A stretch of DNA of 64,000 nucleotides from Pisolithus tinctorius (lineage: Eukaryota > Basidiomycota > Agaricomycetes > Boletales > Pisolithaceae). Below are positions 18,721 to 41,499 of this stretch, in pieces. The stretch is from the NCBI GenBank assembly GCA_024663395.1, contig JANFAH010000042.1, forward strand, positions 1-64,000, in the 5' to 3' direction. Both the position numbers and the translations under genes were made by a program. How positions within the stretch are numbered: position 1 is the stretch's first letter; the number at the start of each line of letters is the position of its first letter. The notes under the pieces are model-generated. The model made no database searches, was not told where the DNA came from, and saw only the letters and a list, made by a program, of their open reading frames with translations.

Positions 18721-21700
18721 AGGGAAAGAAAGGTCTTGTTGGATGGAGGGGCCATGTAGGGTTGGGAGGCGAAGTAAAAAGTCGGAGGGTAACCCGTGAC
18801 GTCGCTTGCAATTCTCGGTTAGCCAGGGCGGACCCTGAAAAATTTTCTTTGGGTTGGGCGGCATTACGTGTTTGGGATCGGCAAAGAACCAACATTCCAC
18901 CGCCATGGCACCCCAGACACGTTCCCAGAGAGCCCTCAGAGCTGCTTCCAATGCATCCTCCACTGATGAAAGTGAAATCAGACTTGCATTTGACAATGTC
19001 ATGAAGGCCATTTCTCCTCCATCTCATCATTCAGACTCAGCATGCTCTTCTCCACTGTCCCCATCCTACAGTGTAATAATGGGTGGTCTCCTTTCCAGAG
19101 CAATGACTCCTCCAGAAGATCCAGAATCCTCTGTTGATGAGGATGAACTGAACCAGATATATGAGAAGTGCCAGGCCATGGTAAACCACTTGAGTGGGTC
19201 AGAAGAGGAGCATCAAAGCAATGCCTCTGACGATTCCTTTGTGAATGTGCATGGCCCATCAGTTGCACCATCGCATCCACCCCATCAGGACTCGAGTCAG
19301 GAGTCAGGGGCGCCTTCTGTACGTGATATCATCAGTGAGTCTCTTCTGTACTCTTTCTCTCTGTCTGCTTATGATTGCTTCTGAAAGTGTGTTCCATGGC
19401 CAGGCCTACCACATGGGCAATGGCCTACCAGACCCTAGGGACTCTCCGGTATGAAACTTGGATCGATGCCAGCATCCTCAACTTTCATCTCCTGTCCCAA
19501 TGGTATGCTGTCCAGGGCAGGATGCATGTCCGCTATGCCGACTTGTTCTCTGTCATTCCATCTGTCAGTGGGGGCACCCATGCCTTACCAGATGCACAGG
19601 AGATTCAATTTTTTCGTCAACGCCATCTCTTCGATTCCCATCCTGCCGATCCATCTGTTCCCATTGCCTTTGTGGTCATGCAAAACAGTCACTTCTTTGT
19701 TGCAGTCTTTGACTATTGGTTGAACCTTGCATTCATCCTTGGAAGGCGCATCGAACGCGTCCCAGAAACCCCCCATCCCCACTATGACCCACTGCGCGAT
19801 GACTGGAACACATGGAATGGCCCTTTCTACTGGACACGCATAGCATCTCTTCATGGATTCGATGCCATCGACCCAACCCAAGTTGATGTGCAGGTGTACA
19901 ATTGGTCACAGAACGGTTTCGACTGTGGGCCCATTGCATCCTTTGTCATGGAGTCACTCATGAGAGGAGGGCTATCTGGTGATGGCAGGCCTACCATCCA
20001 CATCCCTCCAATTCCTTGTGGTCATCGTCTCCGCCTTAGAATGCTTGTCATGGTGAAGGAGGGCTGTCGAAGGTGCTGGGAGGACTATCGTTACTTGTCT
20101 ACAACCACCCTTCCCCCTGGTCACATATGGACACAGTGGGACGACACCGAAGCCATCGGTGAAGACATCCTCATGGATGTGGAAAACCAATCATCTGGAG
20201 AGCAACATGCTACCATCGTCCGTGAGTTGAATGTCATTGGGGCCAACTGCCTTCGCTGCCAAAGGGGGGATGACTCCAGCAATGTAGTGAACCCTGATGT
20301 GCACTCCGATGGTGACTTTCCGACTGACACTGAAGATGAAGGTGAAGACCATCCTTTGCCTCTGGATGCCAAGTCTCAGCGTCTCAGGGATCTCCTTCGG
20401 CGCTACCCTTATGTGAGCAGGGCCAGAGCCAGGGATCGACTTCCTCCTCGGGCTGCCCATGGTCATCGAGTCGAAGGGGAATCCACTCCAGATGATCCTC
20501 TTGAGATCATCCAGCGACGCAAGCATGTCAAGGACTGGTCAGCTGGAACGATGTACCATTTCCCACGTCCAACTCCACCGGTATACCTCCCTGCATACCA
20601 AGGTCAACGATGGAAGCGTTTCGATCGCAGGTTTGATGAGTATGAAGGAGGACCTGTCTTGGAAAGTTTGCACCAGGACCGCAACTGCAATGAGATCGTG
20701 GAGGAGCCCTACTATCGGCCTGGGATGTGGACATCCTTTCGAGATTATGGCTATCGTCTGCTGAGTTCCTTCAACCAGATGTTCTACTTGGGTCCCCCCA
20801 TCAGATTGTCAGACCATATCCTCCAAGTGGGTGTTCCAGCTAACTACCAGTCTTCTCATCAAATCGGCGACCATGTTACTGGTGAGTGCTCATATTCTGC
20901 CCTTGTGCCCTCTTCTGATCGCTTCATTACAGGAAATTACTCTCTTGCCCGGCAGGTGCCCCATCCATCAAGAGTCCATGTGGATGATGTGGTCATACTG
21001 GGTGCCTCTCAGATGATCGAGATTGGCTCGAGCACCTCAGAACGTCTCATGAACACCTTTGTGAATGGGCGGCATGAGGATGGACGTCACATCTGCCTGG
21101 ACCTGGAGCTGGATCACAAGTTGGTGACTCCAGAGGAGTTGGAAGTCACCATGGACATCGACAGTCTCATATGGGTGACACATTCCCTACAGTTCAACAC
21201 ACCGCTGCCCATCTACCTTGGTCCCATCATCGAGGAAAAGGCTCCTATGCACAAGCACAATCATGTGTATGTCGACATCCTTGTGCCTCAGTCAGAGGCA
21301 GATTCCAGTGCCATCGGAAGCCGTACTGAATGGTTGACCATGGCATTTCCTCTGTGTGGAGTACCTCACACAGTGTTTGGTGCCTTGAGCAATGCTGCTG
21401 GCACCATGAATGTCTACATTTGCTTCCCCAGGATGATCCACAGGGATGAGATGACACACAAGCATGCCAATCGCATCCCAAAGGAGGTCCTTGACTTTTT
21501 CTGGGAGCATGTCCTACTTCCAGCAATCCGTGCACATGCAGATGTTTCGAGTGCACCATATGTCTCTCTCACTCTGAAGGAAGTGCAGTTCAAGGCACGA
21601 AAGGGTGGCAAAACCAAGAAGGCTGGTCGGCCAAAAGCGGTCCCCTTTTCTATGCAAGTGTTGAAGCAGATCCAGAAGACCATGGAGGCAATCATCCGAG

Positions 21701-24574
21701 AGGACCCTTCACGATTTGCAAACTATGGTTCCTTCTTCTTTGTCCTGGAATGCAAGGGAATCAAGTTGTGGACGAAAACCACCCTGTCAGGAGCAGTTCA
21801 AACGCCGGTCCAAGCTCTCCTCCATGGACTTCCAGCTCTGGATTGGTCCCACATGGTAGACAGGGCCAATGGGGAGCTCTTGGTCGACTTGGGAATCAGC
21901 ATTCACCCCACATGTGACGAAAAGCTTGTGGGATTGTGGAGACTGGATGCCCTGGAAGCTTCCTTTGGGGCAGGTGGATATTTGCGAGGAAATGCCCACC
22001 ACACTTGCATGCTTGGACGGTATGGGGGGATCCAAGCAGAGATGTCACAGGAACGAGCAAGGCAAACTCACATCGCATTCAGAAGTGCTTATAATCTGGC
22101 CTACGAGGTGATCCGACCCAATGACAACAGCCCCACCTTTGTCATGGACAAGGATGCTTATGCCCTGAACAACGACTTCATCGGGGAATGCATGCAGGCC
22201 ATCAACATGTATTCTGGAGATGCAAAGAAGAGGTCATATGGGGTGCGAGACGAGTACAGGATGAGTGGGGCTGCGGTGGAGCAGGCAATACTGGTGGTGC
22301 CACAAAGGGTGATGCATTTGCAAGCTCGATCATGCTCATATCTGATGCTTCCATCTTTGCAGATGGAAGAGCTTTTAGCCTCCAATCCCATTCTCTGGAT
22401 CCCGACCAAAGTCTGGTTGGAATTTATGGCTGGACGCATCAGGGCCCTCCAGTTGGCTCAGATCTCTCTCAAGGAACTGGAACCGCCCAACCTTGGGATT
22501 CTGACTGGCATCATCTGCCACATGATTCGGTGCACGTCCACCACTGCAATAATCCTTGACTTCCATGTGAGAGAGTCCATGGCCCTTCTGCAGGTCTCCA
22601 GGGTGTGTGAGCGGTTGGGAATGTTCTTCCTTTTGGACCTAGACTTGCATCATGTCCCCCATCTTCCAGAAGTTCAGGATCATGATGACCTGGAGGTGCT
22701 CAAGCTGATGGAGGGAAAGTTGAAGAGGGGTGATGGACGACCTGCCTGGCCAAGGATTCCCCCTCTGGATGAAGTGGAACAATTTCCCATTGGCAGCAGA
22801 CCAACGTGGGCCAAATTGACAAGGACCATCCAACTGCAGCCTTGGTTGATCATGCAGGACTGGAAGTGGTTGGCCCAACTGTCCGGTCTGGGCCAGTGGT
22901 AGGGAAACTTTTGTTCTGTTTACCTGTCAGCTTTGGATCCAGTTGGATGCGACTTGGCTGACAGGTTCAGAGGGAAAACCAGAGCCAACGTCTTTGGAAG
23001 ATGCCATTCAGAGTTGGACTCTGAACCAGACCTTCAGGACGATACGTGCCTGCGAATTCAAGGCCTGCAATGCAGAAATAGCAGGGAGTGGAGGGGCTGG
23101 TCGCCGACAGTCAAGCTTTGCAGAGAGGGTCAACCTGTTTTTCCCAGGACCCACAGCAGGACAACCTTCACGGAGGTCACCATGGAATGTCTTCTGGACA
23201 AAGCCTGGGTATATTTGGGAGTATCACCAGGTGATGAAGAACAGGACACCCCTGGAGGAGTTTGAGGTGCTGGACCACCTTGGCAGGATATTTTCTGTCC
23301 TTCAGACATTACCTGATGCGACCAAAGGGAGTGAAAAGAGTCCTGGGAAGACATGGTGGGTGGAGGGTGAGAAGGTGGTTCTGGTGACAAATCCCAAGTT
23401 CTACAAGATCGAGGGGATCTCCACCGAGAAGGAACAGCAACAGGCCAGGAGACGAGCATCTCGAGTGGTAAAGCCCAGGAATGCACTGCAAATGGAGCTC
23501 CTGGAGCATGCGGGATATGATGAACTGCTGGCTAGCAAGGCCCTCATCTTAGAAAGGCAGAGGCTGAAAGAGGCACAGACTAAGAAGTCATCAAAGGCAA
23601 AGAATGCTCGAAAGCCTCCAGCAAGAAGAGGCAAGGCCACCTCATAGAGGGAAGCAGAGGGATGGGGGGGGGGGGGGGGAAGGCAAGGATATGGGTACAG
23701 AGGGAGAAAGTGATGAATGCAATGTTGATATAGATTGTGGTTCCTGTTCCTGTGGAACTGAATCCCAGTGTTGCCTAGTGTAGTCTGATCAGGTAGCAAC
23801 ATGTTTGGCATCTTGGGATGATACCTGGCCCCAAGGTGAACCCCCCTCTTCAGCTTCACTCCATCAAAACAATTCCAGATCAATCCAGCTGTCCATACCA
23901 TGCCTGTGCCACTTGAATGACATGGCAGGACCATTTGGATCACACCAGAAAGGACCCTAAGTGTCATTCCCTCCTCTTATCCTGTAAAGTTTAGGAAGCA
24001 TGAAACCTTGTCAGGAATGGTTGTCCTGGAGGGCCTGAAAGTCACAACAGATGATGACAATGGTTGCAGCATTCCTAGGTGTCAGAATATCCATGTAAGA
24101 TATGTTACCCCCCCCTCCCCATGTTCACTCCATCAAAACAATTTCAGAGATCGATCTGGCTGTCTGAACCATGTCTACCCCATCTGTATGACATTACAAG
24201 ACCATCAGAATTGTGTTACAAAGGTCCCCATATTTGTTTCATCGACATACCTGATCCCCTCCTCATACCCCAGGGATGGCGATCCAGTAACATCAGGAGG
24301 GGGTGCCAGCTTGCCAGGGATGGATGTCCTGGGTGTTATCAATGCCACTGAAGACAATGGAAATGATTTCCAGCCTCCCAGAAGTATTTCCAAAGAGATA
24401 CCACTTTGTGGTCTGACCATACTTCTACCCCCTGTAGATTTTTTTTCTGACCGCCAATTTCATTCAAATTTCACCTGGGACATCCCAATGGACATATCTA
24501 TCGACTCCCAGCATTATTTCCCCCAAATTATGGTCGGGAGTTTGTAATTATAATTTCCCCAGGGGCTGTATAGT
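18721..24574. repeat. Large direct duplication, copy A
   Basis: This segment of about 5.85 kb is nearly identical to 35638-41494, in the same orientation. It starts agggaaagaaaggtcttg and ends in ggggctgtatagt. Differences are scattered substitutions, mostly transitions, and a few small indels (a long G run near 23666 is present only here). The flanks differ at both ends and show no obvious target-site duplication or terminal inverted repeat. The 3' portion (23650-24574) is non-coding, with two related blocks containing ccatcaaaacaatt. Confidence 0.95.
18905..23647 (+). pseudogene. Ulp1-like cysteine protease, mobile-element protein, copy A
   Basis: Exon 1 starts MAPQTRSQRALRAAS and is acidic and Ser-rich. 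After an intron of about 53 bp comes a domain resembling Ulp1/C48 SUMO proteases: the catalytic His in SHFFVAVFD and Gln/Cys in WSQNGFDCGP (about 19910-19930). Then follows a long region of about 1000 residues with no family I recognise, including GYLRGNAHHTCMLGRYGG, PTWAKLTRTIQLQPW and a Lys-rich tail (KAKNARKPPARRG). In-frame introns are likely at about 20881-20931 (gtgagt to tacag) and about 22309-22362. The frame is lost near 22893, where GGGCC replaces GGCACC of copy B, giving an early stop at 22902. Such proteases are often carried by fungal and plant mobile elements, which suggests an element origin. Confidence 0.7.
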
Positions 24575-24604
24575 TGGCATCAGACATCAGACCCCCTGGA
24601 CAGG

Positions 24605-26128
24605 TCAGGCCCTGCTTACCCCACTTGCAACCGGTAGGGGTTCCCACTCTTTACTGCTACCATCATCCTGTGAAAGACAGATACATCAGTGGCTGGTCAA
24701 CAGACCTTGAACTGGTACTGACCTCGGTGGTTGTCGCCTTGCCTTTGCCCTTGGAAGCTTTGGGACCACGCTTTCTGGTCAGAATTTCCTTGGGTGGTGG
24801 CTATTGGATCAGAATCAAAAATAGGCGACCGGTCGCTTATTTGGACCAATAACATACCATCTGTGCCCTAGTGGATCCTTTATGGGCCTTCTTCTGACGC
24901 TTGCTCTGTGACTTGAAATCATGTCATGTCAGCAATCACCATGGAATCCAAGTCAACAGTGAGTGCTTTACCACTGCCTCCGAGACCCCTCCAGTTTCCG
25001 TTCCTGCAGTCTCTTCCACTTCGTCCTGGTGTCCACGTTTCTACATTGATATCAGTTGTTAGTGACATGTACGTGCCTCGTGTGGACCCTGACCTACCTT
25101 GGAATTTTTCTTGGGGCTCTTCTTGCCACCACTCTTCTGCAATGGTCAGAAATGATAAGCGACCGGTCGCTTATTTTTGGATGATGCCAACTTACCTGTT
25201 TGACAACCATCTTTCCCCCTCTTCACCCTTGGGTGCAGTTGCCTATGAGGTGTCGACAAGAATAAGCGACTGGTCACTTGTTTATGGGTGATGTGAACTT
25301 ACCTGTTCAACATCCATCTCTCCCCCTTCTTCACCCTCGGGTGCAATCGCCTATGGGTGTCGACAAGAATAAGTGACTGGTCGCTTGTTTATGGGTGACA
25401 TGAACTTACCTGTTCGACATCCATCTCTCCCCCTTCTTCACCCTCGGGTGCAGTCGCCTATGGGTGTCGACAAGAATAAGTGACCGGTTGCTTGTTTATG
25501 GGTGATATGAGCTTACCTGTTCGATGTCCATCACTCCCCCTTCTTCACCCTCGGGTGCAGTCGCCTATGGGTGTTGACAAGAATAAGCGACCGGTCGCTT
25601 GTTTATGGGTGACATGAACTTACCTGTTCAACGTCCATCTCTCCCCCTTCTTCACCCTCAGGTGCAGTCGCCTATGGGTGTCGACAAGAATAAGCGACCG
25701 GTCACTTGTGGGAGGTGAGAAAGAAAAAAAAAAAAAACACACCTTTGTTGCCTTCCTCGCTGCTAACCTTTTGTGGGCAGCAGTAGACTGGGCATGTGAG
25801 AGATTGATGGCTGCAGCCACATCTGTTCCAGTGGAAACACCCTGAAAAGATGGTCAAAATAAGTGACCAGTCGCTTGTCAGAGGTTCCACATCACTTACA
25901 GTGGGTCTGGGGGCCTGGGAAAGTTGTGACATGACATGATACACATGCAAGTCAGTGTGGTTTCCTGGAGATGAGGTATGCCACAACTTACCTGGGGCAC
26001 AGCAGTTTTGCCAGACTTGCTGTTGTTGTTGTTGGACTGCAGGCAGGGGGAGAGAAATAAGCGACCGGTCGCTTATTTTTCCAATGACTTTGACTTACCT
26101 TGGTCTGATTTTGGTTGGTGCTGGACAT
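24605..26128 (-). CDS. Small Lys/Ser-rich protein with many microexons
   Basis: I do not recognise the product. The ATG at 26128 opens MSSTNQNQTK. A 62-bp intron (26037-26098) follows, then SNNNNSKSGKTAVPQ, then APRPT, then GVSTGTDVAAAINLSHAQ... ending RLAARKATK. Next come five 107-bp intron-exon modules (25243-25742), an exon SGGKKSPKKNSK-like, and an end with PPPKEILTRKRGPKASKGKG and DDGSSKEWEPLPVASGVSRA before the stop at 24605. Nearly every intron has clear GTAAGT-type donors and contains the 20-bp palindrome. The exons in the 107-bp modules are 46 nt, so the frame cannot run through all of them as spliced here. Either some are skipped or the array is not coding. Confidence 0.5.
25137..25742 (-). 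repeat. 107-bp tandem intron-exon modules
   Basis: Five palindrome intervals of exactly 107 bp run from 25155 to 25690. Each unit reads on the minus strand as an intron of about 61 bp (GTAAGTTCATG to CCCATAG) holding the palindrome, then a 46-nt exon-like piece with ACTGCACCCGAGGGTGAAG and ending GAACAG. Units differ by a few substitutions. The first is the most diverged; the last has a different donor next to a run of T. Confidence 0.9.
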
Positions 26129-26949
26129 GATTTTGTTATTTGTATCTGTTTGTACTTAATCCAAATGCAGTAGGCGGTGGTTCAAGTTCAAGATGCAAAA
26201 GTTACACAGCCACCAATCTGACCTTGGTATATACTTGTTTGTTGATTATATAATGCTGTGACTTCCATATTTGGACATTAAATAATCAATCAGTGAACTA
26301 TGTGAAAGTGGTGCTATTTATTGCTTATGTAATCAATTAAGTAAGCCATGCTGGCTTGGGTGTGCACCGAATGGTCATGGGCATGCCCCACGAAAAAAAA
26401 AATAGGTGACCGGTCACTTATCTTGGGTATGTATGCTGGCATTTTGGTTGTCATACCTGTCCAGAGTTGGACTGGCTCGTGTGTGCACCTCACAGTTGTT
26501 GGCATGCTCCATGGTCATAAGTGACTGGTCACTTATCTTGATACACCAGCATTTTGGTTGATGCTTCTGACCAGAGCTGGTGTCCTTCCTGAAGAGAGGG
26601 ACAAAGAGATGTGACACAAGGAGCAGAAACCAGTTATGAGCATCGTGATCACAGTGTACTTTATGTGTCACGACAGTGCAAGTGGAGCGGCGAAACTCGC
26701 ATCTGCTAGTGTTCATATACTGCTTGGCTGCTCGTGTAATCCTCTGATGACCATATTTTCCAATCATGCAATGTTTTTTCCCATTCTACTGATGTCCCAT
26801 GAACCAGCAATGGACAAGCGACGGTCGCATGTCAAGCCAGGGCCCATGGCAATGGGTCTGGTGGTATGGCCACCCCACATACTTGCCATTCACCCTCCCT
26901 GATCTAGCTGTGAAGATGAAGGGGTTCCACTGTTGCCTGGTGGCACAGA

Positions 26950-28013
26950 TCAGCTATCGGTTGTGTGATTGCTGCAGTATGGTGATAGCAGTGTGCTCAC
27001 CCCTTGTCTTTTCCCTGTAGCATCCCGTCGTAGTTTGTCTCTGACGATCTGAATGTCTATTACCTGCTTTCCGATGGCCTCGATGTCTGCAAGAGTTTCT
27101 GCAAGCTTCTGTAGACCTTCCTCTGATGGTTTCCACCCCACCAACTTCTCTTCCCCACCTTCCATGATGATCTGAGGACTCGAGTACAGTTTGGAGATGG
27201 TCATGTCCCATGCCCCAGTGATCACTTCCTGCCACTCCGGTGCCCAGGTGGCCAGATCTAATTTGGTTCGGCAAAACTGCAGTGATGCCTCTTTCTCGGC
27301 AATCGTAATGTCCAAGCACCTTGTACGAATCTTGATGACATATTCCCTACCACAGTTGAACGATGGTCGCCGCTTGCGAAGGGAAGATGGGAGAGTCCCA
27401 TTTGCTTTGTGCTCGTACAGTTCCCTCAGGTCTTCCTCCAGCAAGCAAGCCCGTGTAGTTACGAATCTCAGATCCTCCATGAGTGGCAGCAAGTACTCCA
27501 TGTAATCCAAGTGGACAAACTTGACGACGTCATGGTGACTGCCTGCAAGCTGCAATTCAGCCACTTCATAGGTGGGCAGATCATATTTCTGTGGGCATCA
27601 AAGGTTGGGGTTGCTGTAGCTTTGAATGAATGATGATCCATCTCGAACTTACTGTGGATTTGGTGACAGGGCATGGTCCCAGCAACAATGGTGGCATGGT
27701 CTGTCAGTGTACGTGAGTCCTGTCCCTTTCATTTGAGTGAAACGTATGCTTACTTCATCCCCACTGCTGTCCTCATCCTTGCTGCCATCCAGCAATGGCC
27801 ACATGGGTAGAAGGTTGCCTATTTGTGCCATGCTTTCATTTACTGCTGGGACTCCCTGCTCCTGCTGGTGGCTACCTGCATCTTGTGCCTTTTTGAGGAC
27901 ATTTCTCTACACCATTTGCAGCAAATAAGCAACCGGTCGCTTATTTGTGTGGCCTGGGATGGCCCAGCTGGTCGCAAGTCCATACATACCTTGGCATTTG
28001 TGTAGTTGGACAT
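26950..28013 (-). CDS. Hypothetical protein of the palindrome-bearing block
   Basis: The ATG at 28013 opens a short exon, MSNYTNAK. An 83-bp intron (27907-27989) carrying the palindrome follows, then RNVLKKAQDAGSHQQEQG, MAQIGNLLPMWPLLDG and the acidic KDEDSSGDE, two more small introns near 27650-27760, and a long last exon. The last exon begins around EVAELQLAGSHHDVVKFVHL and continues with LLPLMEDLRFVTTRACLLEEDLRELY, RKRRPSFNCGREYVIKIRTR and TISKLYSSPQIIMEG. It is helical in character with no domain I recognise. The layout (8-10 codons, then a palindrome intron) matches the neighbouring gene that starts at 26128. Phases of the middle exons were not fully reconciled. Confidence 0.55.
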
Positions 28014-28230
28014 GTCAACAGTGTTTGTACTTGTTTGCACCGTGTACTGATTTAGCAGGTGGTGGTTGCAACTCAAGAAGCAAAATCTGCATAGCCACTC
28101 ATCTGGCAGTGCTTATGCATGCCTCAGCTGCTTATCTAACCAATATATATCCATATTTGTCAATTACATAATGTAACATCTTCTCACAAAAGTCCCTGGT
28201 TGCAAGCGACCAGTCGCTTGTTTTGGAGCG

Positions 28231-31200
28231 CTACTCCTGCTGCTGCTGGTGGTACCACATGATCAACGCAAACAGATTGCTATGATCCCCATGCCTCGGT
28301 CGTCCCATCAACCACCTGCTAAACCCTCTGGAATCTCCCCAATTTTGCCCAAATTCTCTCTGTGCTTGCTCTCCCAATGTGGCTTGGCGATGGATCCCAT
28401 ATGCAGCTGGTGCCACCACATCTGCAAACCTACAAGCCTGCCCTCCCAGTGCCCTTTGGAATTGTGGATGTACCTTGTCGTTTACCTGTGGGACGTGGCA
28501 CATCCAGCAGATCTTCTTGTGGTAGGTCTTGTCATAGTGGAGTCCCTTTCTCCACTCCACGTAGTCACTCCATCCATCTCCAGCCAGATGTGGACATTCT
28601 CTGATCCCATGTCGCTCCATGGCACCTTTCTTCAGCACTCTGCAAAGGCTGCAACACCCCTGGAAACTTTCCAAAGCAGCCAATATTTTGTCCCCCTCTT
28701 CCAATTGCTTGGTCTCTTCCTCTCCTCGTAGTCGTCGTGCCAGTACTGATGCGGCATCAAAGCTAGTCTTCAGAGGAGCAGGCTGTTCTGCTGATTGCCC
28801 TTGGATGGATCTCATGGCCTGCTGTTTGAGCCTGGCTGTGCCAGCCACTTGTATGTCCAATGGGTTGTGTCCCGGCTCCTCCAGGCAGACGGTGCATGCC
28901 TCGTTCCCCTGCTCCATACCACAGCTGATCCCTTTGCTGTCATTGAACAGTGTCATCCCATACCGCAGGCATCTCCTTGGCCCATAGCAATACAGCAGTT
29001 CGTAGATTGCCCATTTGGCCTCCCCTTCCAGCCCCATGGACTGTATGTCAGGCAGGGTCGACGTCGGTGGAATGATCGTATAGCAGTTGGCTGGCTGTCC
29101 GTCTCGACCTGCTCTGCCCTGTCCTTGGATGTAATCCACCATGTCAAATGGTCGGTCCATGTGAATGACCGTCCGCACATGAGGGTAGTCATTCCCAGCG
29201 CTGAAGGCAGTGGTGGCGATGAGAACCTTGTAGAATCCCTTGATCCACTGTTGGTATATCCATCGTCGGTCCTCATCTGAGGTCCCCGTGTCTCCATTGT
29301 AGAATGGATATGCCATCGAGTGTGATAGCTTCTGACCGGCTGCTATGGATGTCACGAACACCAAGGCTCTGTCCCTTTCCTGCCAGCTTCCAGCTTCCAC
29401 CTCCAACACTTCTGCTACTCATCGATGCATGGAGTCGACTGGCACCCTTTCCAAGTGATATGCCAGTTCTGATCGGTCTGTACTTTGTCGGACGACCTGG
29501 GTTTGCTGTACCAGCTGGAAGGTGGTCTTGACTTCCTCCATGCACCAAGTTGGAAGGGTGGCACTCAGCAGCACTAGCTGCATCGGGATGCTGCGTAGTT
29601 GGTGGATGCTTTGAAAGGCCATGCGATAGTCTTTGGCCATGAGAGGAATGTGGGCCTCATCAAATATCAGCCTGGCCACCTTCTTGCTTTGGTTGAGCAC
29701 TGCCAGGGCAGCCCGCCACTGCAATGTCAATGCCCTGTCAGCCGTGACCAGAATCAAATTGGTGGACGAGTTCAGGGGCTTGTCTGCTGCATAGACTTGA
29801 TATGGCACTCTGAACTCCTCCAGCCGTCGTTGGTAGTCCAGCATGAGAGAGTTCAGAGGCAAGACCAGCACTGTGGCTTCCCTCGGTTGCACCATGCTGG
29901 GAATTATTGCTAACATGGACTTTCCAGCTCCAGTACCCAGCACTGCTACCAGGTCCGTTTGTCCTTTGAGGACTGTTGCCATGCAGGCACCCTGTTCCTT
30001 TGATTTCCAGGTTGCTGATGGGTTCTTGAGCAGGCCCTGCATCGCCTGCAGGGCTTGTCCCAAAATAGCTGACTGACCACTCGTGCTGGGTTCTGTAGAC
30101 TGGTCTGTGAAATGCCATGTCAGGTGACTCATCTATTGGGCAAATGTCTTGCATGTTCTTACCATGTATGTCATCCCTTGGCTCGAGTTCAACATCACTG
30201 AGGTCCCAGATAGGCGACCGGTCGCTTATTCCAGACTGGATCCTGGCTAGATTGGATTTAATTTCCAACGATCATCTGACATGGGTATTACCGACCGTGA
30301 CTGGTGCTCTGCCCTTGCTCTTTCTCCCTCTCCTTCCCTTTTCCTTCATCTGTCCTCTCTGATGGGCCTCCTGTGGCAGATTGAAGCACCTCCTGCAACA
30401 TTCCCTTCAATGCAGGCATCAGCTTGTCCATCACCTTGGTGGCAATCTCATCTGTGGATGGCAGTTTGGCCACCACTGCATCTACCATGGCCTTTTGGAT
30501 TGCCTCGGTTGGCATGGAATAGGCGACCGGTCGCTTGTTTTCCCTGGGCTCTGGTGCAGGTGGGGATGGGGCATGTGTCCGTGCAGTCTTGTATGATGCC
30601 AACTGGCCACCGACTGGCACCTGGCAGTGCCTTTGCCATTCCATGCTGGCATTGAGGTATGCAGGTAGCACGTCCTCTGCAGCTCCAGCCAGAGCATCCA
30701 TGCTGATGCCATACACTCGGTTTTCTGTAGATCGACTGTGGCCTGCCTGCAGGGCTTCCACGTTGTCTTCCCTGTCCATCTCTATCACGTCCTCCACTGC
30801 ACAGCCAAGCTTTCGTTTCCATGCTGTTTGGATGTGTCGCCACGAGTTGATGGTCAGCCCAAAGTGCATGATGGGAAGGCTGTGCTTGCTCATGATGGTC
30901 GACAGGTCTTTGGAGTCGAAGAGGCAATCGTAGTTGACAAAGACGTGGTTGCGATACAGCTCCACCACCTCTGGCTTGTCTGGGAAACATGCCCTGGCTG
31001 CAATCTCTGCAAATGGCCGTGCCAAGGCCAGGTCCTGCACCAAGATGTCACTGGTGATGCCATCCAGGGCATGAGGGATCAGCTTGTCTTTCCCTGTCAA
31101 TGCCGTTGTCTTGAGGTATTGACAAAGGAGGGAGACATGGTTTCCCAGTACTACCAGGTTCCGAGTCGGCTGGGTCTGGGTGTTGCGATAGGTCATGGCG

Positions 31201-34102
31201 GTTAGTTCTGTGCCACGACTTGGAGCCCCGCTGAGCATCTGGGCTCGCAAAAGTAGCAAGCTTTGCAGCTCTGCATACTTCTTCAACCATGCTTGAAGGG
31301 CACCTGTGTTCCATACGATGGCTCCCTGCCTGATCATGGCAAAATGGGCAAACGTGTCCTCGTCTTCTAGGAAGTGCTTCACCAGCCTATCCCTACCTGC
31401 AAGCTGTGGATTTCTGACGTCAGAAAGGAAGGAGTAGCCAACGTCTTTGTTGACCAAGTCCTCTGCAATCTTGTCATAGTCTGCTCTGATGTCATGGCCC
31501 ATCAGGATCCCCTGTTCCCATGCCTCTACCAGCTTGACCTCTGTCCGTTCAAAGACCTTGCAGAGATCAGCAAAGTCCACCTGCTCCCCTCTGTACAACA
31601 TGGTCTTCCAGGTCTTGGTGTCTGTCCACCACACTTGAGGAAGGCTCATGGTGTCCAAGGCCAGGGAAGTCGCTCTGTGTTGCAGGGAACGCAGATGGGA
31701 GAAAGTATATCGGGTATTCTCCACAAAGAAGCTCTCCAGGTCTGAACAGTGCTCCTCTTCATCCTTCTGTGGGTCTGACTCCATGCGACTGTGGATCTCC
31801 ACGAGAAAGGTGAGTCGCATGCAGTACTCCAACCTGGCTATGATCGGGGTGACTTGATGTGGCTCTTTGAAGGCACCATCTTCTCTGAGAGTCATCAGGG
31901 CAAGACACCTTTCTGTTGGATCCACAATGTCCCTGTCTCCTTGATGCTTCCATGCTGTGCTCCAGAGCTGGAACAGCAACTCATGGATGAGTGATGATGC
32001 TTCTGTGTCTTCTCGACCGATGCGAAGCACTGCTAAGAGATCTAACAGCTTGGGATTTGAACCAGAGAATGGCCCTCCACTGTACTGTTGTCTGATCAAC
32101 ATCGCCAGCAGAATCACCACTGGGATGATGTACTGTTTCATGGTTGACTCGTACAGGTGCTTGTGGAAGGGTGTGTTGGACAGGCCACTGGGAAGGAATA
32201 AGCGACCGGTCGCTTATCCGTGCATGCATGGCTGCTTACCTTTTCATGGGATTGGGGGAATTCAACCTTTTCCGGACGATCTCTCCTGTGTGCTCCAGCA
32301 GACTGAGGGCCTTTTGATAGTATGCCTGAACCACCTCCTTCAGTCCAGGAATGAGACCATCATCTGCCTTGGGTAACATGACCAGGCCACACTGCTGTTT
32401 GATGTTCTTGCCAGCAAGGTGTTCGTGCCACTGTGTTGTCAACAACCAGGGGCTCACCATGCGACCATCTGGTGGTGATTGGACAACCTCTAGTGTGGGC
32501 TCCAGTTGTTTGAGCAGCGAGTCCACCAGTACTTGTCTGGCTGTTGGTTGGCTCTGCTGGTCTGCATCCTCAACCTCCCAGAATGCCTGCAGTTCCCCTG
32601 GACGCTCCTTCAGGTGTTGCATTTTGCAGGACCGCCACACTTTGGGTCTCTGTACCATAGGGTGCTCCTTTCCATGATGTTTTCGTAGGTTGTCCTTGGA
32701 CCTGGATAGAAAATGGCAGTTGTCACATGCCACACCATCATGGACTTTTAGTCCTTCCACTCTTGGCCTGGGCCCAGTGATGTTGGTAGGCAGATCTGCA
32801 GCTACCTTCAATGCACCCAAGGCCAAGTTGAACTGATAGTTGTTGTATGTGGAATGTCTACCATGTGTTTTGGCCAGATGACCCCTGACTTCCTCAATGG
32901 ATAAGGCCACTTGACAAATCTGGCATGTCAGGAAGCGGAATTCAGTGTTCACCACCAAGTCTAGTGAGTCAAGATAGACTGATGATGGAATTGGAGCAGA
33001 TGGAGCAGAAGTTGCAGCTTCATGTGTGGTGTTCCCCAACTGGGATTGGATTGCTGACTGTGAGGCAAACTTGAGTCCTGTTGGCTGCAACTCAATTCTC
33101 ATAGCTCACCAGGAGTGATGGTATTGGGGGTGATGACATTGGGGAAGGGAGTGACTTGTCAGACTTGGGTGAAACTATCATCTGTTCATTGTCCTGGTTC
33201 TGTGGATAAGCGACCGGTCGCTTATTGTGGAGAGCACAACTCACAATTCTGGGGTGTGGCGGTGTGGGTGAACACATGATTTCATCTTGTTGGGCCAACT
33301 GGTTGGGAGGTGGTGATGGGATCTCACCCAAGTCCTCTGATATCTGTTTTCCTTGTAAGTGTTGCATAGTCAAGACTTTCCCTTCCACTCACTGATGATC
33401 CAGGGGAGCGTTTGGAGGACTGGTGTGCCAACATTCACCATCAGGCTCTTGTCATGAGGAGCTACATGATGCTCACCTCAGTTGTTTCACTTTCACTAAT
33501 GTCATCGTGCTGCAATAGCATTCAGCAGATAAGCAACCGGTCGCTTATTCTGCTTGGACAAGCCACTGACCAAGTCTTTTCTGTCCCTACTGGGGCCACT
33601 TTTCCCCTCTTCATGGGCCTGTGATGGTGATGACATGGGTGATTGGTTACTTTCTCCTGAGCAACACACTCACCAAGTCCCTGCTGGGTCCAGCTCCAAT
33701 CCCTTGTCCATGGGTCTGTGATGGGCAGATAAGCAACCGGTCGCTTATTTTTCTGGATGATAAAGCCACTCACAAGGTTAACTTTCCCTATGAATGTATT
33801 ACCCTGCCAACATGTTCAGAGATGATTCTAAATAAGGAAATGTTTCCCACAGCTCACCTGTCCCTTCCACTCACTGCCAGCCTTCATTATGTGAGACCTC
33901 AGACTGTTAGCATACTGGAATGGTCTGGACAACCCATGGCAGAACAATGACAAATAAAATGCCCCTTCTCATCCCTTTGCAGCTTGATGGTCTGGTTGGT
34001 GTGGGGCAGGCTAATGGTGGCCTCTTGGACACATTTCTTGGTGTGGGAGCTGTATTCTTTTCTGCTGGAAAAGTTCTCTTGGCAGGTAGGGCAGACAGGC
34101 AT
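28231..34102 (-). CDS. C2H2 / tyrosine-recombinase-like / RecQ helicase fusion
   Basis: A long multi-exon gene resembling fungal telomere-linked-helicase-type proteins. The N-terminus has Cys/His motifs: CPTCQENFSSRKEYSSHTKKC (about 34090), FLTCQICQVALSIEEVRGHL (about 32940) and CDNCHFLSRSKDNLRKHHGK (about 32710). The central part (32141-30288) carries boxes like a tyrosine recombinase: SRGTEL (about 31215), KTTALTGKDKLIPH, NSWRHIQTAWKRK (about 30840) and GHSRSTENRVYG (about 30720). The C-terminal part is a RecQ helicase: GTGAGKS (about 29930), FDEAH (about 29660), LLSATLP, and QGQGRAGRDG (about 29110), followed by Cys-rich segments (CWMCHVPQ). A TGA at 29419-29421 interrupts the frame between the two helicase lobes, and there are apparent one-base breaks near 33910 and 30150. 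Many introns contain the 20-bp palindrome. Confidence 0.75.
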
Positions 34103-34554
34103 GATGGTGGTGGTAGGAGTTCAAGAGGCAAAGTGGCTGATTTCCCACAGTGACACCTATATATATGTGGCAGATAATTTCCATATACAGTACATCCCCA
34201 TTTGGATTATTCCATATAGAGCACAACCCCATGTGGATTGCTCTATATGGTGACTAAGCTTCTTCATTTTCCAACCATGGGTGGGATAAGTGACCAGTTG
34301 CCTATTTTCTGAAAGGGTCAGACTCCATTTGCCACCATGGGTCAGATAGTCAGAGGTCACTTGCACAAGCACCCCCCCTGAGTGCATTCAGCATCGTGCA
34401 CAGATAGGCAACCGGTTGCTTATTTTCTCCAGTTGGTCATCACTAGTGACTTGATAATTTGCTAGTCCAATCTCTACTAATCATGCAGTGTTGGTCTTGC
34501 TACATATTTACTACCCAACTACCCTTGGGTTCAGATAAGCAACCGGTCTCTTAT

Positions 34555-35590
34555 TGTTGTGCACTCACTATGCACTCTGCGCACTCACTACGCACTCTGC
34601 ACACTCACTACACATGTTGTGCACTCACTATGCACTCACTACACTTGTTGCACACTCACTACACACTCTGCACACTCACTACACTTGTTGCGCACTCACT
34701 ATGCACTCTGCGCACTCACTACACTTGTTGTGCACTCACTATGCACTCACTACGCACTCTGCGCACTCACTACACTTGTTGCGCACTCACTACGCACTCA
34801 CTACGCACTCTGCGCACTCACCACACTTGTTGCGCACTCACTACACACTCACTACGCACTCTGCGCACTCACTACACTTGTTGCGCACTCACTACGCACT
34901 CACTACGCACTCACTACGCACTCACTACGCACTCTGCGCACTCACTACACTTGTTGCGCACTCACTATGCACTCACTACGCACTCTGCGCACTCACTACA
35001 CTTGTTGCGCACTCACTATGCACTCTGCACACTCACTACACTTGTTGCGCACTCACTATGCACTCACTACGCACTCTGCGCACTCACTACACTTGTTGCG
35101 CACTCACTACGCACTCACTACGCACTCTGCGCACTCACCACACTTGTTGCGCACTCACTACACACTCACTACGCACTCTGTGCACTCACTACACTTGTTG
35201 CGCACTCACTACGCACTCACTACGCACTCACTACGCACTCACTACGCACTCTGCGCACTCACTACACTTGTTGCGCACTCACTACGCACTCACTACGCAC
35301 TCTGCGCACTCACTACACTTGTTGTGCACTCACTATGCACTCTGCGCACTCACTACACTTGTTGCGCACTCACTACGCACTCACTACGCACTCTGCGCAC
35401 TCACTACACTTGTTGCGCACTCACTACGCACTCACTACGCACTCTGCGCACTCACTACACTTGTTGTGCACTCTGCACACTCACTACACTTTGGTCTACG
35501 CACTCATTACGCACTCACTATGCACTCTGCGCACTCACTACACTTTGGTCTACGCACTCGCTACGCTTTGGTCTACGCACTCACTACGCA
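34555..35590. repeat. GCACTCACTAC minisatellite, about 1 kb
   Basis: Tandem array built from an 11-bp word GCACTCACTAC mixed with CACTCTGC and ACTTGTT words, in larger units of about 40-55 bp. It ends in variants with ACTTTGGTCTACGC before the boundary with duplication copy B. All three plus-strand frames are open across it because no word creates a stop. I treat it as non-coding satellite DNA. It lies just 5' of the helicase-fusion gene. Confidence 0.95.
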
Positions 35591-35637
35591 CTCGCCGCGC
35601 ACTCGGATCGAGCGCTGGCTCCGGAAAGCACGTTATT

Positions 35638-38600
35638 AGGGAAAGAAAGGTCTTGTTGGATGGAGGGGCCATGTAGGGTTGGGAGGCGAAGTAAAAAGTC
35701 AGAGGGTAACCCGTGACGTCGCTTGCAATTCTCGGTTAGCCAGGGCGGACCCTGAAAAATTTTCTTTGGGTTGGGTGCGGCATTACGTGTTTGGGATCGG
35801 CAAAGAACCAACATTCCACCGCCATGGCACCCCAGACACGTTCCCAGAGAGCCCTCAGAGCTGCTTCCAATGCATCCTCCACTGATGAAAGTGAAATCAG
35901 ACTTGCATTTGACAATGTCATGAAGGCCATTTCTCCTCCATCTCATCATTCAGACTCAGCATGCTCTTCTCCACTGTCCCCATCCTACAGTGTAATAATG
36001 GGTGGTCTCCTTTCCAGAGCAATGACTCCTCCAGAAGATCCAGAATCCTCTGTTGATGAGGATGAACTGAACCAGATATACGAGAAGTGCCAGGCCATGG
36101 TAAACCACTTGAGTGGGTCAGAAGAGGAGCATCAAAGCAATGCCTCTGATGATTCCTTTGTGAATGTGCATGGCCCATCAGTTGCACCATCGCATCCACC
36201 CCATCAGGACTTGAGTCAGGAGTCAGGGGCGCCTTCTGTACGTGATATCATCAGTGAGTCTCTTCTGTACTCTTTCTCTCTGTCTGCTTATGATTGCTTC
36301 TGAAAGTGTGTTCCATGGCCAGGCCTACCACATGGGCAATGGCCTACCAGACCCTAGGGACTCTCCGGTATGAAACTTGGATCGATGCCAGCATCCTCAA
36401 CTTTCATCTCCTGTCCCAATGGTATGCTGTCCAGGGCAGGATGCATGTCCGCTATGCCGACTTGTTCTCTGTCATTCCATCTGTCAGGGGGACACCCATG
36501 CCTTACCAGATGCACAGGAGATTCAATTTTTTCGTCAACGCCATCTCTTCAATTCCCATCCTGCCAATCCATCTGTTCCCATTGCCTTTGTGGTCATGCA
36601 AAACAGTCACTTCTTTGTTGCAGTCTTTGACTATTGGTTGAACCTTGCATTCATCCTTGGAAGGCGCATCGAACGTGTCCCGGAAACCCCCCATCCCCAC
36701 TATGACCCACTGCGCGATGACTGGAACACATGGAATGGCCCTTTCTACTGGACACGCATAGCATCTCTTCATGGATTTGATGCCATCGACCCAACCCAAG
36801 TTGATGTGCAGGTGTACAATTGGTCACAGAACGGTTTCGACTGTGGGCCCATTGCATCCTTTGTCATGGAGTCACTCATGAGAGGAGGGCTATCTGGTGA
36901 TGGCAGGCCTACCATCCACATCCCTCCAATTCCTTGTGGTCATCGTCTCCGCCTTAGAATGCTTGTCATGGTGAAGGAGGGCTGTCGAAGGTGCTGGGAG
37001 GACTATCGTTACTTGTCTACAACCACCCTTCCCCCTGGCCACATATGGACACAGTGGGATGACACCGAAGCCATCGGTGAAGACATCCTCATGGATGTAG
37101 AAAACCAATCATCTGGAGAGCAACATGCTACCATCGTCCGTGAGTTGAATGTCATTGGGGCCAACTGCCTTCGCTGCCAAAGGGGGGATGACTCCAGCGA
37201 TGTAGTGAACCCTGATGTGCACTCCGATGGTGACTTTCCGACTGACACTGAAGATGAAGGTGAAGACCATCCTTTGCCTCTGGATGCCAAGTCTCAGCGT
37301 CTCAGGGATCTCCTTCGGCGCTACCCTTATGTGAGCAGGGCCAGAGCCAGGGATCGACTTCCTCCTCGGGCTGCCCATGGTCATCGAGTCGAAGGGGAAT
37401 CCACTCCAGATGATCCTCTTGAGATCATCCAGCGACGCAAGCATGTCAAGGACTGGTCAGCTGGAACGATGTACCGTTTCCCACGTCCAACTCCACCGGT
37501 ATACCTCCCTGCATACCAAGGTCAACGATGGAAGCGTTTCGATCGCAGGTTTGATGAGTATGAAGGAGGACCTGTCTTGGAAAGTTTGCACCAGGACCGC
37601 AACTGCAATGAGATCGTGGAGGAGCCCTACTATCGGCCTGGGATGTGGACATCCTTTCGAGATTATGGCTATCGTCTGCTGAGTTCCTTCAACCAGGTGT
37701 TCTACTTGGGTCCCCCCATCAGATTGTCAGACCATATCCTCCAAGTGGGTGTTCCAGCTAACTACCAGTCTTCTCATCAAATCGGCAACCATGTTACTGG
37801 TGAGTGCTCATATTCTGCCCTTGTGCCCTCTTCTGATCGCTTCATTACAGGAAATTACTCTCTTGCCCGGCAGGTGCCCCATCCATCAAGAGTCCATGTG
37901 GATGATGTGGTCATACTGGGTGCCTCTCAGATGATCGAGATTGGCTTGAGCACCTCAGAACGTCTCGTGAACACCTTTGTGAATGGGCGGCACGAGGATG
38001 GACGTCACATCTGCCTGGACCTGGAGCTGGATCACAAGTTGGTGACTCCAGAGGAGTTGGAAGTCACCGTGGACATCGACAGTCTCATATGGGTGACGCA
38101 TTCCCTACAGTTCAACACACCGCTGCCCATCTACCTTGGTCCCATCGTCGAGGAAAAGGCTCCTATGCACAAGCACAATCATGTGTATGTCGACATCCTC
38201 GTGCCTCAGTCAGAGGCAGATTCCAGTGCCATCGGAAACCGTACCGAATGGTTGACCATGGCATTTCCTCTGTGTGGAGTACCTCACACAGTGTTTGGTG
38301 CCTTGAGCAATGCTGCTGGCACCATGAATGTCTACATTTGCTTCCCCAGGATGATCCACAGGGATGAGATGACACACAAGCGTGCCAATCGCATCCCAAA
38401 GGAGGTCCTCGACTTTTTCTGGGAGCATGTCCTACTTCCAGCGATCCGTGCACATGCAGATGTTTCGAGTGCACCATATGTCTCTCTCACTCTGAAGGAA
38501 GTGCAGTTCAAGGCACGAAAGGGTGGCAAAACCAAGAAGGCTGGTCGGCCAAAAGCGGTCCCCTTTTCTATGCAAGTGTTGAAGCAGATCCAGAAGACCA

Positions 38601-41494
38601 TGGAGGCAATCATCCGAGAGGACCCTTCACGATTTGCAAACTATGGTTCCTTCTTCTTCGTCCTGGAATGCAAGGGAATCAAGTTGTGGACGAAAACCAC
38701 CCTGTCAGGAGCGGTTCAAACGCCGGTCCAAGCTCTCCTCCATGGACTTCCAGCTCTGGATTGGTCCCACATGGTAGACAGGGCCAATGGGGAGCTCTTG
38801 GTTGACTTGGGAATCAGCATTCACCCCACATGTGATGAAAAGCTTGTGGGATTGTGGAGACTGGATGCCCTGGAAGCTTCCTTTGGGGCAGGTGGATATT
38901 TGCGAGGAAATGCCCACCACACTTGCATGCTTGGACGGTATGGGGGGATCCAAGCAGAGATGTCACAGGAACGAGCGAGGCAAACTCACATCGCATTCAG
39001 AAGTGCTTATAATCTGGCCTACGAGGTGATCCGACCCAACGACAACAGCCCCACCTTTGTCATGGACAAGGATGCTTATGCCCTGAACAACGACTTCATT
39101 GGGGAATGCATGCAGGCCATCAACATGTATTCTGGAGATGCAAAGAAGAGGTCATATGGGGTGCGAGACGAGTACAGGATGAGTGGGGCTGCAGTGGAGC
39201 AGGCAATACTGGTGGTGCCACAAAGGGTGATGCATTTGCAAGCTCGATCATGCTCATATCTGATGCTTCCATCTTTGCAGATGGAAGAGCTTTTAGCCTC
39301 CAATCCCATTCTCTGGATCCCGACCAAAGTCTGGTTGGAATTTATGGCTGGACGCATCAGGGCCCTCCAGTTGGCTCAGATCTCTCTCAAGGAACTGGAA
39401 CCGCCCAACCTTGGGATTCTGACTGGCATCATCTGCCACATGATTCGGTGCACATCCACCACTGCAATAATCCTCGACTTCCATGTGAGAGAGTCCATGG
39501 CCCTTCTGCAGGTCTCCAGGGTGTGTGAGCGGTTGGGAATGTTCTTCCTTTTGGACCTAGACTTGCATCATGTCCCCCATCTTCCAGAAGTTCAGGATCA
39601 TGATGACCTGGAGGTGCTCAAGCTGATGGAGGGAAAGTTGAAGAGGGGTGATGGACGACCTGCCTGGCCAAGGATTCCCCCTCTGGATGAAGTGGAACAA
39701 TTTCCCATTGGCAGCAGACCGACGTGGGCCAAATTGACAAGGACCATCCAACTGCAGCCTTGGTTGATCATGCAGGACTGGAAGTGGTCAGCCCAACTGT
39801 CCAGTCTGGCACCAGTGGTAGGGAAACTTTTCGTTCTGTTTACCTGTCAGCTTTGGATCCAGTTGGATGCGACTTGGCTGACAGGTTCAGAGGGAAAACC
39901 AGAGCCAACGTCTTTGGAAGATGCCATTCAGAGTTGGACTCTGAACCAGACCTTCAGGACGATACGTGCCTGCGAATTCAAGGCCTGCAATGCAGAAATA
40001 GCAGGGAGTGGAGGGGCTGGTCGCCGACAGTCAAGCTTTGCAGAGAGGGTCAACCTGTTTTTCCCAGGACCCACAGCAGGACAACCTTCACGGAGGTCAC
40101 CATGGAATGTCTTCTGGACAAAGCCTGGGTATATTTGGGAGTATCACCAGGTGATGAAGAACAGGACACCCTGGAGGAGTTTGAGGTGCTGGACCACCTT
40201 GGCAGGATATTTTCTGTCCTTCAGACATTACCTGATGCGACCAAAGGGAGTGAAAAGAGTCCTGGGAAGACATGGCGGGTGGAGGGTGAGAAGGTGGTTC
40301 TGGTGACAAATCCCAAGTTCTACAAGATCGAGGGGATCTCCACCGAGAAGGAACAGCAACAGGCCAGGAGACAAGCATCTCGAGTGGTAAAGCCCAGGAA
40401 TGCACTGCAGATGGAGCTCCTGGAGCATGCAGGATATGACGAACTGCTGGCTAGCAAGGCCCTCATCTTAGAAAGGCAGAGGCTGAAAGAGGCACAGACC
40501 AAGAAGTCATCAAAGGCAAAGAATGCTCGAAAGCCTCCAGCAAGAAGAGGCAAGGCCACCTCATAGAGGGAAGCAGTGGGATGGGGAGGGGGAAGGCAAG
40601 GATATGGGTACAGAGGGAGAAAGTGATGAATGCAATGTTGATATAGATTGTGGTTCCCATTCCTGTGGAACTGAATCCCAGTGTTGCCTAGTGTAGTCTG
40701 ATCTGGTAGCAACATGTTTGGCATCTTGGGATGATACCTGGCCCAACGTGAACCCCCCTCTTCAGCTTTGCTCCATCAAAACAATTCCAGATCAATCTGG
40801 CTGTCCATACCATGTCTGTGCCACTTGAATGACATGGCAGGACCATTTGGATCACACCAGAAAGGACCCTATGTGTCATTCCCCTCCTCTTATCCTGTAA
40901 AGTTTAGGAAGCATGAAAGTTTGTCAGGAATGGTTGTCCTGGAGGGCCTGAATGTCACAACAGATGATGAGAATGGTTGCAGCATTCCTAGGTGTCAGAA
41001 TATCCATGTAAGATATGTTACCCCCCTCCCCCCCCTCCCCATGTTCACTCCATCAAAACAATTTCAGAGATCGGTCTGGCTGTCTGAATCATGTCTACCC
41101 CATCTGTATGACATTACAAGACCATCAGAATTGCATTAAAAAGGTCCCCATATTTGTTTCATCAACATACCTGATCCCCTCCTCATACCCCAGGGATGGC
41201 AATACAGTAACATCAGGAGGGGGTGCCAGCTTGCCAGGGATGGATGTCCTGGGTGTTATCAATGCCACTGAAGACAATGGAAATGATTTCCAGCCTCCCA
41301 GAAGTATTTCCAAAGAGATACCACTTTGTGGTCTGACCATACTTCTACCCCCTGTAGATTTTTTTTCCGACTGCCAATTTCATTCAAATTTCACCTGGGA
41401 CATCCCAATGGACATATCTATCGACTCCCAGCATTATTTCCCCAAAATTATGGTCGGGAGTTTGTAATTATAATTCCCCCAGGGGCTGTATAGT
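35638..41494. repeat. Large direct duplication, copy B
   Basis: Second copy of the segment at 18721-24574. Its left edge directly abuts CCGGAAAGCACGTTATT (35621-35637), an arm of the 46-bp palindrome at 5026. Its right edge ends in a minus-strand helicase fragment. By eye identity to copy A is very high, with differences mostly C/T and G/A. Confidence 0.95.
35824..40566 (+). pseudogene. Ulp1-like cysteine protease, mobile-element protein, copy B
   Basis: Same protein as in copy A, from MAPQTRSQRALRAAS to the Lys-rich end KAKNARKPPARRGKATS. The catalytic His (SHFFVAVFD) and Gln/Cys (WSQNGFDCGP) are present. The frame is lost at about 36487 (CTGTCAGGGGGACACCC against CTGTCAGTGGGGGCACCC in copy A) and at about 40170, where one C of a CCCC run is missing. 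Where copy A has its early stop near 22900, copy B reads on. The breaks in the two copies are therefore at different places, and neither copy is open throughout. Confidence 0.7.
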
Positions 41495-41499
41495 GGGAC

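Follow-up and report, generated by a model that had tools for sequence, protein, structure and literature searches.

The 64,000-nucleotide stretch of Pisolithus tinctorius DNA analysed here (assembly GCA_024663395.1, contig JANFAH010000042.1, positions 1 to 64,000 of the forward strand; hereafter, the window) contains a 20-bp palindrome, ATAAGCGACCGGTCGCTTAT, that is repeated along one 10-kb block and often falls inside introns of three minus-strand genes, A, B and C. Does this repeat mark a mobile intron, an aid to splicing, or a site in the DNA that has lodged in introns? A preliminary description of the window favoured introner-like elements or, alternatively, sites used by the recombinase-helicase that gene A encodes. 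Divergent paralogues of gene A hold different palindromes in the same intron, and the palindrome type follows the recombinase phylogeny. Our preferred explanation, on which we stand evenly poised between acceptance and doubt, is that the palindrome is a family-specific DNA site of dyad symmetry, co-diverged with the encoded DNA-binding or recombinase protein, for which the introns are a lodging.

Distribution of the palindrome

In a pattern scan of the window, 20 copies of ATAAGCGACCGGTCGCTTAT (type I) were found at up to three mismatches, all within positions 24821-34554, compared with none in 100 dinucleotide shuffles of the window. At up to five mismatches there are 22 copies, again all in 24821-34554 and none elsewhere in the window, and one further, indel-bearing copy near 26817 was spotted by eye. 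The preliminary description gave 23 copies, and their restriction to the block holds within the window. It does not hold for the genome, where a search at up to two mismatches gives 173 sites (reversed-pattern control, 0), some of them in arrays close to telomere repeats on three contigs. The sample is one genome, and near-identical copies within it are not independent.

The 22 window copies comprise 14 in introns, six in intergenic DNA or at the 3′ end of gene B, and two in coding DNA, and palindromes are present upstream of all three genes.

Palindrome type and recombinase phylogeny

Gene A (28231-34102, minus strand) was delineated from Pfam matches, a fold model, homologues, exon mapping and open reading frames (ORFs). 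It comprises an N-terminal zinc-finger/OrsD region, a tyrosine recombinase of predicted Xer/Cre fold (ORF 30288-32141, minus strand), a linker and a DEAD plus Helicase_C helicase. The comparison across paralogues concerns a single intron, 32188-32239, which precedes the recombinase exon. This intron was found wherever the script located both flanking exons (21 rows from 20 places), and it occupies the same place in divergent paralogues whichever of four 20-bp palindromes it holds: ATAAGCGACCGGTCGCTTAT (type I), ACAACTCATCGATGAGTTGT (type II), TTAGCATACATGTATGCTAA (type III) or ACAACTCGTCGACGAGTTGT (type IV). In gene A copies near that of the window, the intron carries palindrome I or a decayed form. 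On contig C11 and in one copy on C41 it carries ATAACTCATCGATGACTTAT, in blocks where forms of RCAACTCATCGATGAGTTGY recur (the C11 stretch has 13); the C23 copy carries a near form of ACAACTCGTCGACGAGTTGT; and the other C41 copy carries TTAAGATACATGTATACTAA, with an array of TTAGCATACATGTATGCTAA upstream. Smaller, broken copies (two on C15 and others on C45, C63 and at 437k of C41) have type III just upstream of the first recombinase match. In some type III loci (L026, L029, L034), a degenerate type I palindrome is present elsewhere as well.

On a tree of 20 recombinase rows, the four palindrome types require three changes, the least possible, in a data set where three rows fill less than half of the columns, type IV is a single row and near-copies inflate the contrast with shuffles. 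The earlier suggestion that the palindromes are sites used by the block's recombinase-helicase gains from this concordance and from the protein's predicted fold, as modelled, of a tyrosine recombinase; that the block's own product binds them, we infer.

The recombinase-helicase protein

The helicase of gene A scores above the Pfam cut-offs for DEAD and Helicase_C, and no RecQ-specific Pfam domain is among those listed. Its recombinase domain was modelled with the fold of a tyrosine-recombinase (Xer/Cre) catalytic domain. Across 57 sequences, R309, H468, Y477 and two lysines (344 and 353) are at least 90% conserved, while the second Arg, that of the HxxR box, is below 90% and the first His of this box reads Asn; the catalytic roles of these residues and of the box are presumed from the motif series R, K, H, R, H/W, Y. 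A PDB sequence search with the recombinase gave no credible match, and none of 13 pattern matches to possible relatives on viral contigs was confirmed. In the window copy of gene A, the frame breaks in exon 1 (~33.93-33.97k), and an in-frame stop lies between the helicase halves, at 29419-29421. At one locus on C11 (L039 position 5747; C11:1762747), a family II palindrome lies inside the recombinase coding region, where it reads AQLIDELC and replaces other residues at equal length.

Position near chromosome ends

Among the gene A matches, the 19 strongest have E below 1e-100; for 17 of these, a contig end is no more than 66 kb away, and the two exceptions are both on C2, at 5.6 Mb. Telomere repeats are seen at the ends of C11, C41 and C43, which bear gene A copies; the first 600 bases of the window's contig contain none. 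Arrays of the type I palindrome on C1, C13 and the end of C11 have spacings of 98-175 bp, with one of 301, and lie between ~10 bp (C13) and ~1.3 kb (C1, C11) from telomere repeats. At the end of C41 (L042, 9850-10000), gene A is truncated and telomere repeats follow at once, which resembles the healing of a chromosome break within the gene.

RecQ helicase genes are reported near some telomeres of Ganoderma leucocontextum (PMC10817607). The present blocks resemble such fungal telomere-linked RecQ-type helicase genes (TLH) in having helicase genes repeated near telomeres, but differ in that the helicase is one part of a protein that also has zinc fingers and a tyrosine recombinase, and in that many family-specific palindromes lie in its gene. 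Our searches of the open-licence literature listed no description of this palindrome, nor of any recombinase-helicase that carries sites of this kind.

Conservation and symmetry of the palindrome

Conservation was assessed between the group of copies on C42, C38 and C18 and five other copies, with flanks of 30 bp. For palindromes in four introns, identity is 0.92-0.94, or 0.94-1.00 once CpG positions are set aside, and for their flanks it is 0.28-0.92; at the palindrome 33206-33225, in gene A intron 33200-33244, the flanks have diverged to 0.28 and 0.46 and the palindrome stands at 0.92. The two coding palindromes are 0.86 and 0.99 identical, with flanks of 0.83-0.92. In the type I palindrome, most changes are transitions at the three CpG pairs, a pattern that would be consistent with methylated DNA in slow decay. 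In addition, positions 2/19 and 4/17 show mirrored changes.

Introns and possible recombination at the palindromes

We identified 25 GT-AG introns across the three genes, chosen by eye rather than as an exhaustive gene model: 14 contain a palindrome and 11 do not. The palindrome-bearing introns are 45-83 bp long. This agrees with the preliminary description, which counted at least a dozen such introns in three genes (45-94 bp) and stated that the rest of each intron differs; the 20-mer is indeed all that different introns have in common, a tandem array in gene C excepted. Six of the 14 intronic palindromes (25155-25690) belong to this one exon–intron array, four of them in hybrid inner introns, so that about ten palindrome introns are independent. 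Deposited models splice out intron 32188-32239 (P0002, P0004, P0007) and intron 27907-27989 (P0121).

The array (25155-25709, minus strand) consists of a 107-bp unit of exon plus palindrome-bearing intron, with a palindrome at both its start and its end. In the inner introns, which are hybrids, the last intron's 5′ half is joined to the first intron's 3′ half, a structure that unequal exchange between two palindromes would produce. BLAST matches end inside palindromes in 45 of 465 cases, compared with a mean of 3.3 for shifted palindromes, and outside these arrays in 19 of 432 compared with 2.35; 6 of 1000 shifts gave a count as high as this 19. Exchange at the palindrome site is only suggested.

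We also considered, and rejected, a C2 copy as a deletion at palindromes: its two palindromes are 98 bp apart instead of the ~200 seen elsewhere, and the junction, placed by eye, lies in similar exon ends. On C43 (L044, 2559-2935), gene A contains a second exon–intron tandem duplication, with a 138-bp unit and no bounding palindromes.

Assessment of the explanations

In the preferred explanation, the palindrome would be the dyad-symmetric site of mobile-element-like gene blocks at chromosome ends. Each family of blocks would have its own 20-bp palindrome in many copies, in introns, promoter regions and linker-coding DNA or in upstream arrays, and the site would most likely be read by a dimer of a protein from the same block, through gene A's zinc fingers or its recombinase. 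The site may also promote recombination, as the exon–intron duplication at palindromes suggests. The explanation builds on the repeats and their places, the family-specific palindrome at the homologous intron, the agreement between palindrome type and the recombinase tree, the fold as modelled and the arrays near telomere repeats.

Several results weigh against it. (i) Types II to IV are not restricted to the surroundings of detected recombinase genes. Both type II proper, with 50 and 42 strand matches, and type III (68 sites at up to three mismatches; reversed control, 6) are found in some places where no recombinase match is listed. Type II also lies outside the places inspected for gene A, and beside type I copies (C2:5603177, C28:842103); C36 holds both. 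Contigs C78 and C13 (L064, L065) share, near their ends, a 99%-identical, intron-rich repeat that bears type III palindromes and that, over the 4.5 kb read, matches none of 121 fetched proteins. It may be a counterpart of genes B and C, which carry palindromes and are not recombinases, or it may be another element; we hold the preferred explanation with less confidence because type III palindromes sit there without a recombinase match. Palindrome IV has 140 sites genome-wide at up to two mismatches, and the seven of its loci that were fetched (L051-L057) represent one dispersed repeat with two to four in-frame palindromes reading SAQLDDELC-like; by reading, this repeat, which has a downstream reverse transcriptase-like frame, appears to be Ty3/gypsy-like. 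A type II variant (19 sites) is in another dispersed repeat in the five loci fetched. (ii) Conservation is not always highest in the palindrome: at 32198 one intron flank is conserved equally (0.92), and at the coding site 30519 the downstream flank exceeds the palindrome (0.92 versus 0.86). The arms of the type I palindrome do not co-vary (54 distinct palindromes from 140 copies; p 0.83 for palindromic changes, 0.78 with wobble), changes being mostly the CpG transitions noted above. (iii) In Foldseek, the recombinase model reaches a best E of only 0.1, the top rows being Xer proteins. (iv) Mixing of flanks at palindromes, scored with a threshold set by hand, is not above controls (10 mixed clusters versus 7, 7, 7, 9, 10, 12, 15 and 18 at shifted anchors), and three other arrays (units of 170, 150 and 138 bp) are not bounded by palindromes. 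(v) Contig ends also collect repeats for reasons of assembly.

Two side observations concern the dispersed repeats. At L053, homology to the other Ty3/gypsy-like loci ends just past an in-frame palindrome. The repeat of L058-L062 is at least 720 bp long, has a sharp right end (TTTGACTCACA) and contains a longer imperfect palindrome in which one type II-like palindrome is nested.

Among the alternatives, the one with a real, if less than even, chance is that of a regulatory or chromatin site, at which a dimeric factor (the zinc fingers of the gene or a host subtelomere protein) silences, insulates or self-regulates the genes. It would suit the presence of copies in telomere-near arrays and upstream of each of the three genes, the occurrence of types II to IV in other repeats, and the mirrored mutational tolerance of the two half-sites (Spearman 0.77 for 10 positions; for the 7 non-CpG positions, 0.72 with p 0.07), but a single host factor would not account for one type per recombinase clade, and some 20 copies spread through introns and linker-coding DNA would be unusual. 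On the unlikely side, we place a sharper form of the preferred explanation, compatible with it, in which the palindromes are lox/dif-like strand-exchange sites of the encoded recombinase, with 7-bp arms on either side of a 6-bp core, so that exons are duplicated or removed in frame and arrays are built at chromosome ends. The modelled fold, the conserved R309, H468 and Y477 (with their presumed roles), the palindrome-to-palindrome array with its hybrid introns and the enrichment of match ends outside arrays all point this way. Against these stand the absence of flank mixing above controls, the three arrays without bounding palindromes and the Asn and less conserved Arg in the presumed HxxR box, and 20-bp repeats would seed ordinary homologous exchange too. 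To dif, lox and FRT sites and to Crypton-type tyrosine recombinase elements, the likeness is in the Xer/Cre fold, by model, and in short dyad sites; here, in contrast, many sites lie in the introns and coding DNA of the very gene that encodes the recombinase, the site type varies between paralogues, and exchange is no more than suggested. Defined, Crypton-like element ends were sought and no common ends were found, the C18 and C42 copies diverging at 34045 and 24573. Improbable in our judgement is a selfish nature, in which mini-palindromes would invade whatever place tolerates them through conversion or hairpin repair, a proposal made for green-algal organelles: palindromes do occur in introns, intergenic and coding DNA and in frame in the Ty3/gypsy-like repeat, but one type goes with each recombinase clade and places are kept between copies. 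The precedent is Volvox, whose organelle genomes have short palindromic repeats in intergenic and intronic DNA (PMC2670323); those described here share that setting, but are nuclear, 20 bp long, at fixed places between copies and of one type per recombinase clade at the compared intron.

Readings that centre on the intron fare worse. An RNA-level element, a hairpin or branch-site module that helps splicing, is quite improbable. In its favour, a CTTAT arm lies 11-21 nt from the intron 3′ end in nine of 11 palindrome-bearing introns tested (22 of the 25 introns were given to the test, including one of the four hybrid array introns) and is the only YTNAY within 8-45 nt of that end in five of the nine, and the family II intron copy departs from its own block's consensus so as to end in CTTAT. 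This arm may serve as a branch site, and such a position may be why the palindrome sits at a regular offset in these introns, but introns 33200-33244 and 24801-24857 fall outside the pattern, palindrome-free introns also manage, and eight of the 22 copies are not intronic. The lack of covariation between arms led us to reject an RNA hairpin under selection. That the palindromes are themselves intron-borne mobile introns, as first proposed, is scarcely credible, even with 14 of 22 copies intronic. Introners are elements that carry whole introns to new sites. Here, only 20 bp are shared, the boundaries of the repeated unit are not at splice sites, eight of 22 copies are extra-intronic, 11 of 25 introns have no palindrome, and intron 32188-32239 is present in the paralogues of all four types rather than new relative to them; the introner reading was therefore discarded. 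The likeness to introners (PMC9860276) is a motif repeated in introns; the difference is that the shared unit is less than a whole intron and that copies also lie outside introns.

Should the preferred explanation hold, these blocks would offer a natural series of recombinase or zinc-finger proteins with matched sites for the study of how DNA specificity evolves, and a handle on the copying and upkeep of fungal chromosome ends and helicase genes. A repeat that resembles an intron element can be a DNA site lodged in introns. We consider it rather unlikely that the blocks amount to lox/dif-like eukaryotic systems, each with a dozen or more crossover sites of its own in introns and flanks, in which the enzyme could duplicate, delete and reshuffle its exons and the chromosome-end arrays in frame and enzyme and site have co-diverged into at least four specificities.

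Features of the block and its surroundings

In gene A, the intronic palindromes other than 33206-33225 lie at 33729-33748 (intron 33716-33773), 33529-33548 (intron 33510-33570) and 32198-32217, the last in the intron that in other paralogues holds palindrome II, III or IV. The two coding copies, 30519-30538 (peptide KRPVAY) and 30210-30229 (peptide ISDRSPI), are both in the recombinase-helicase linker (deposited model P0001). Three more, starting at 34286, 34404 and 34535, lie upstream of gene A (34286-34554), and one with four mismatches (28202-28221) lies between the gene A stop and the gene B start. Gene B (26417-28013, minus strand; deposited model P0121, 352 aa, no Pfam family) has a palindrome at 27925-27944 in intron 27907-27989. 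The pair starting at 26402 and 26517 (26402-26536) is upstream of gene C and at the gene B 3′ end, where 26517 is coding according to P0121. Gene C (24573-26128, minus strand), read by eye as many short exons, has palindromes at 26057-26076 (intron 26037-26098), 25859-25878 (intron 25842-25899) and 24821-24840 (intron 24801-24857) in addition to the 107-bp array, and its homology to the C18 copy breaks at 24573, the start of another repeat.

That repeat is present as two direct copies, 21328-24574 and 38245-41495, which flank the palindrome block on both sides. Each is ~98% identical to one same C18 stretch, and they overlap long ORFs (19375-22902 and 36377-40306) with no Pfam family. A minisatellite of GCACTCACTACGCACTCTGC-like units begins at ~34560, directly after the palindrome at 34535-34554, and extends over 34560-35600. 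Two further arrays, of a related 153-bp unit, occupy 9646-11317 and 16172-17130 of the window.
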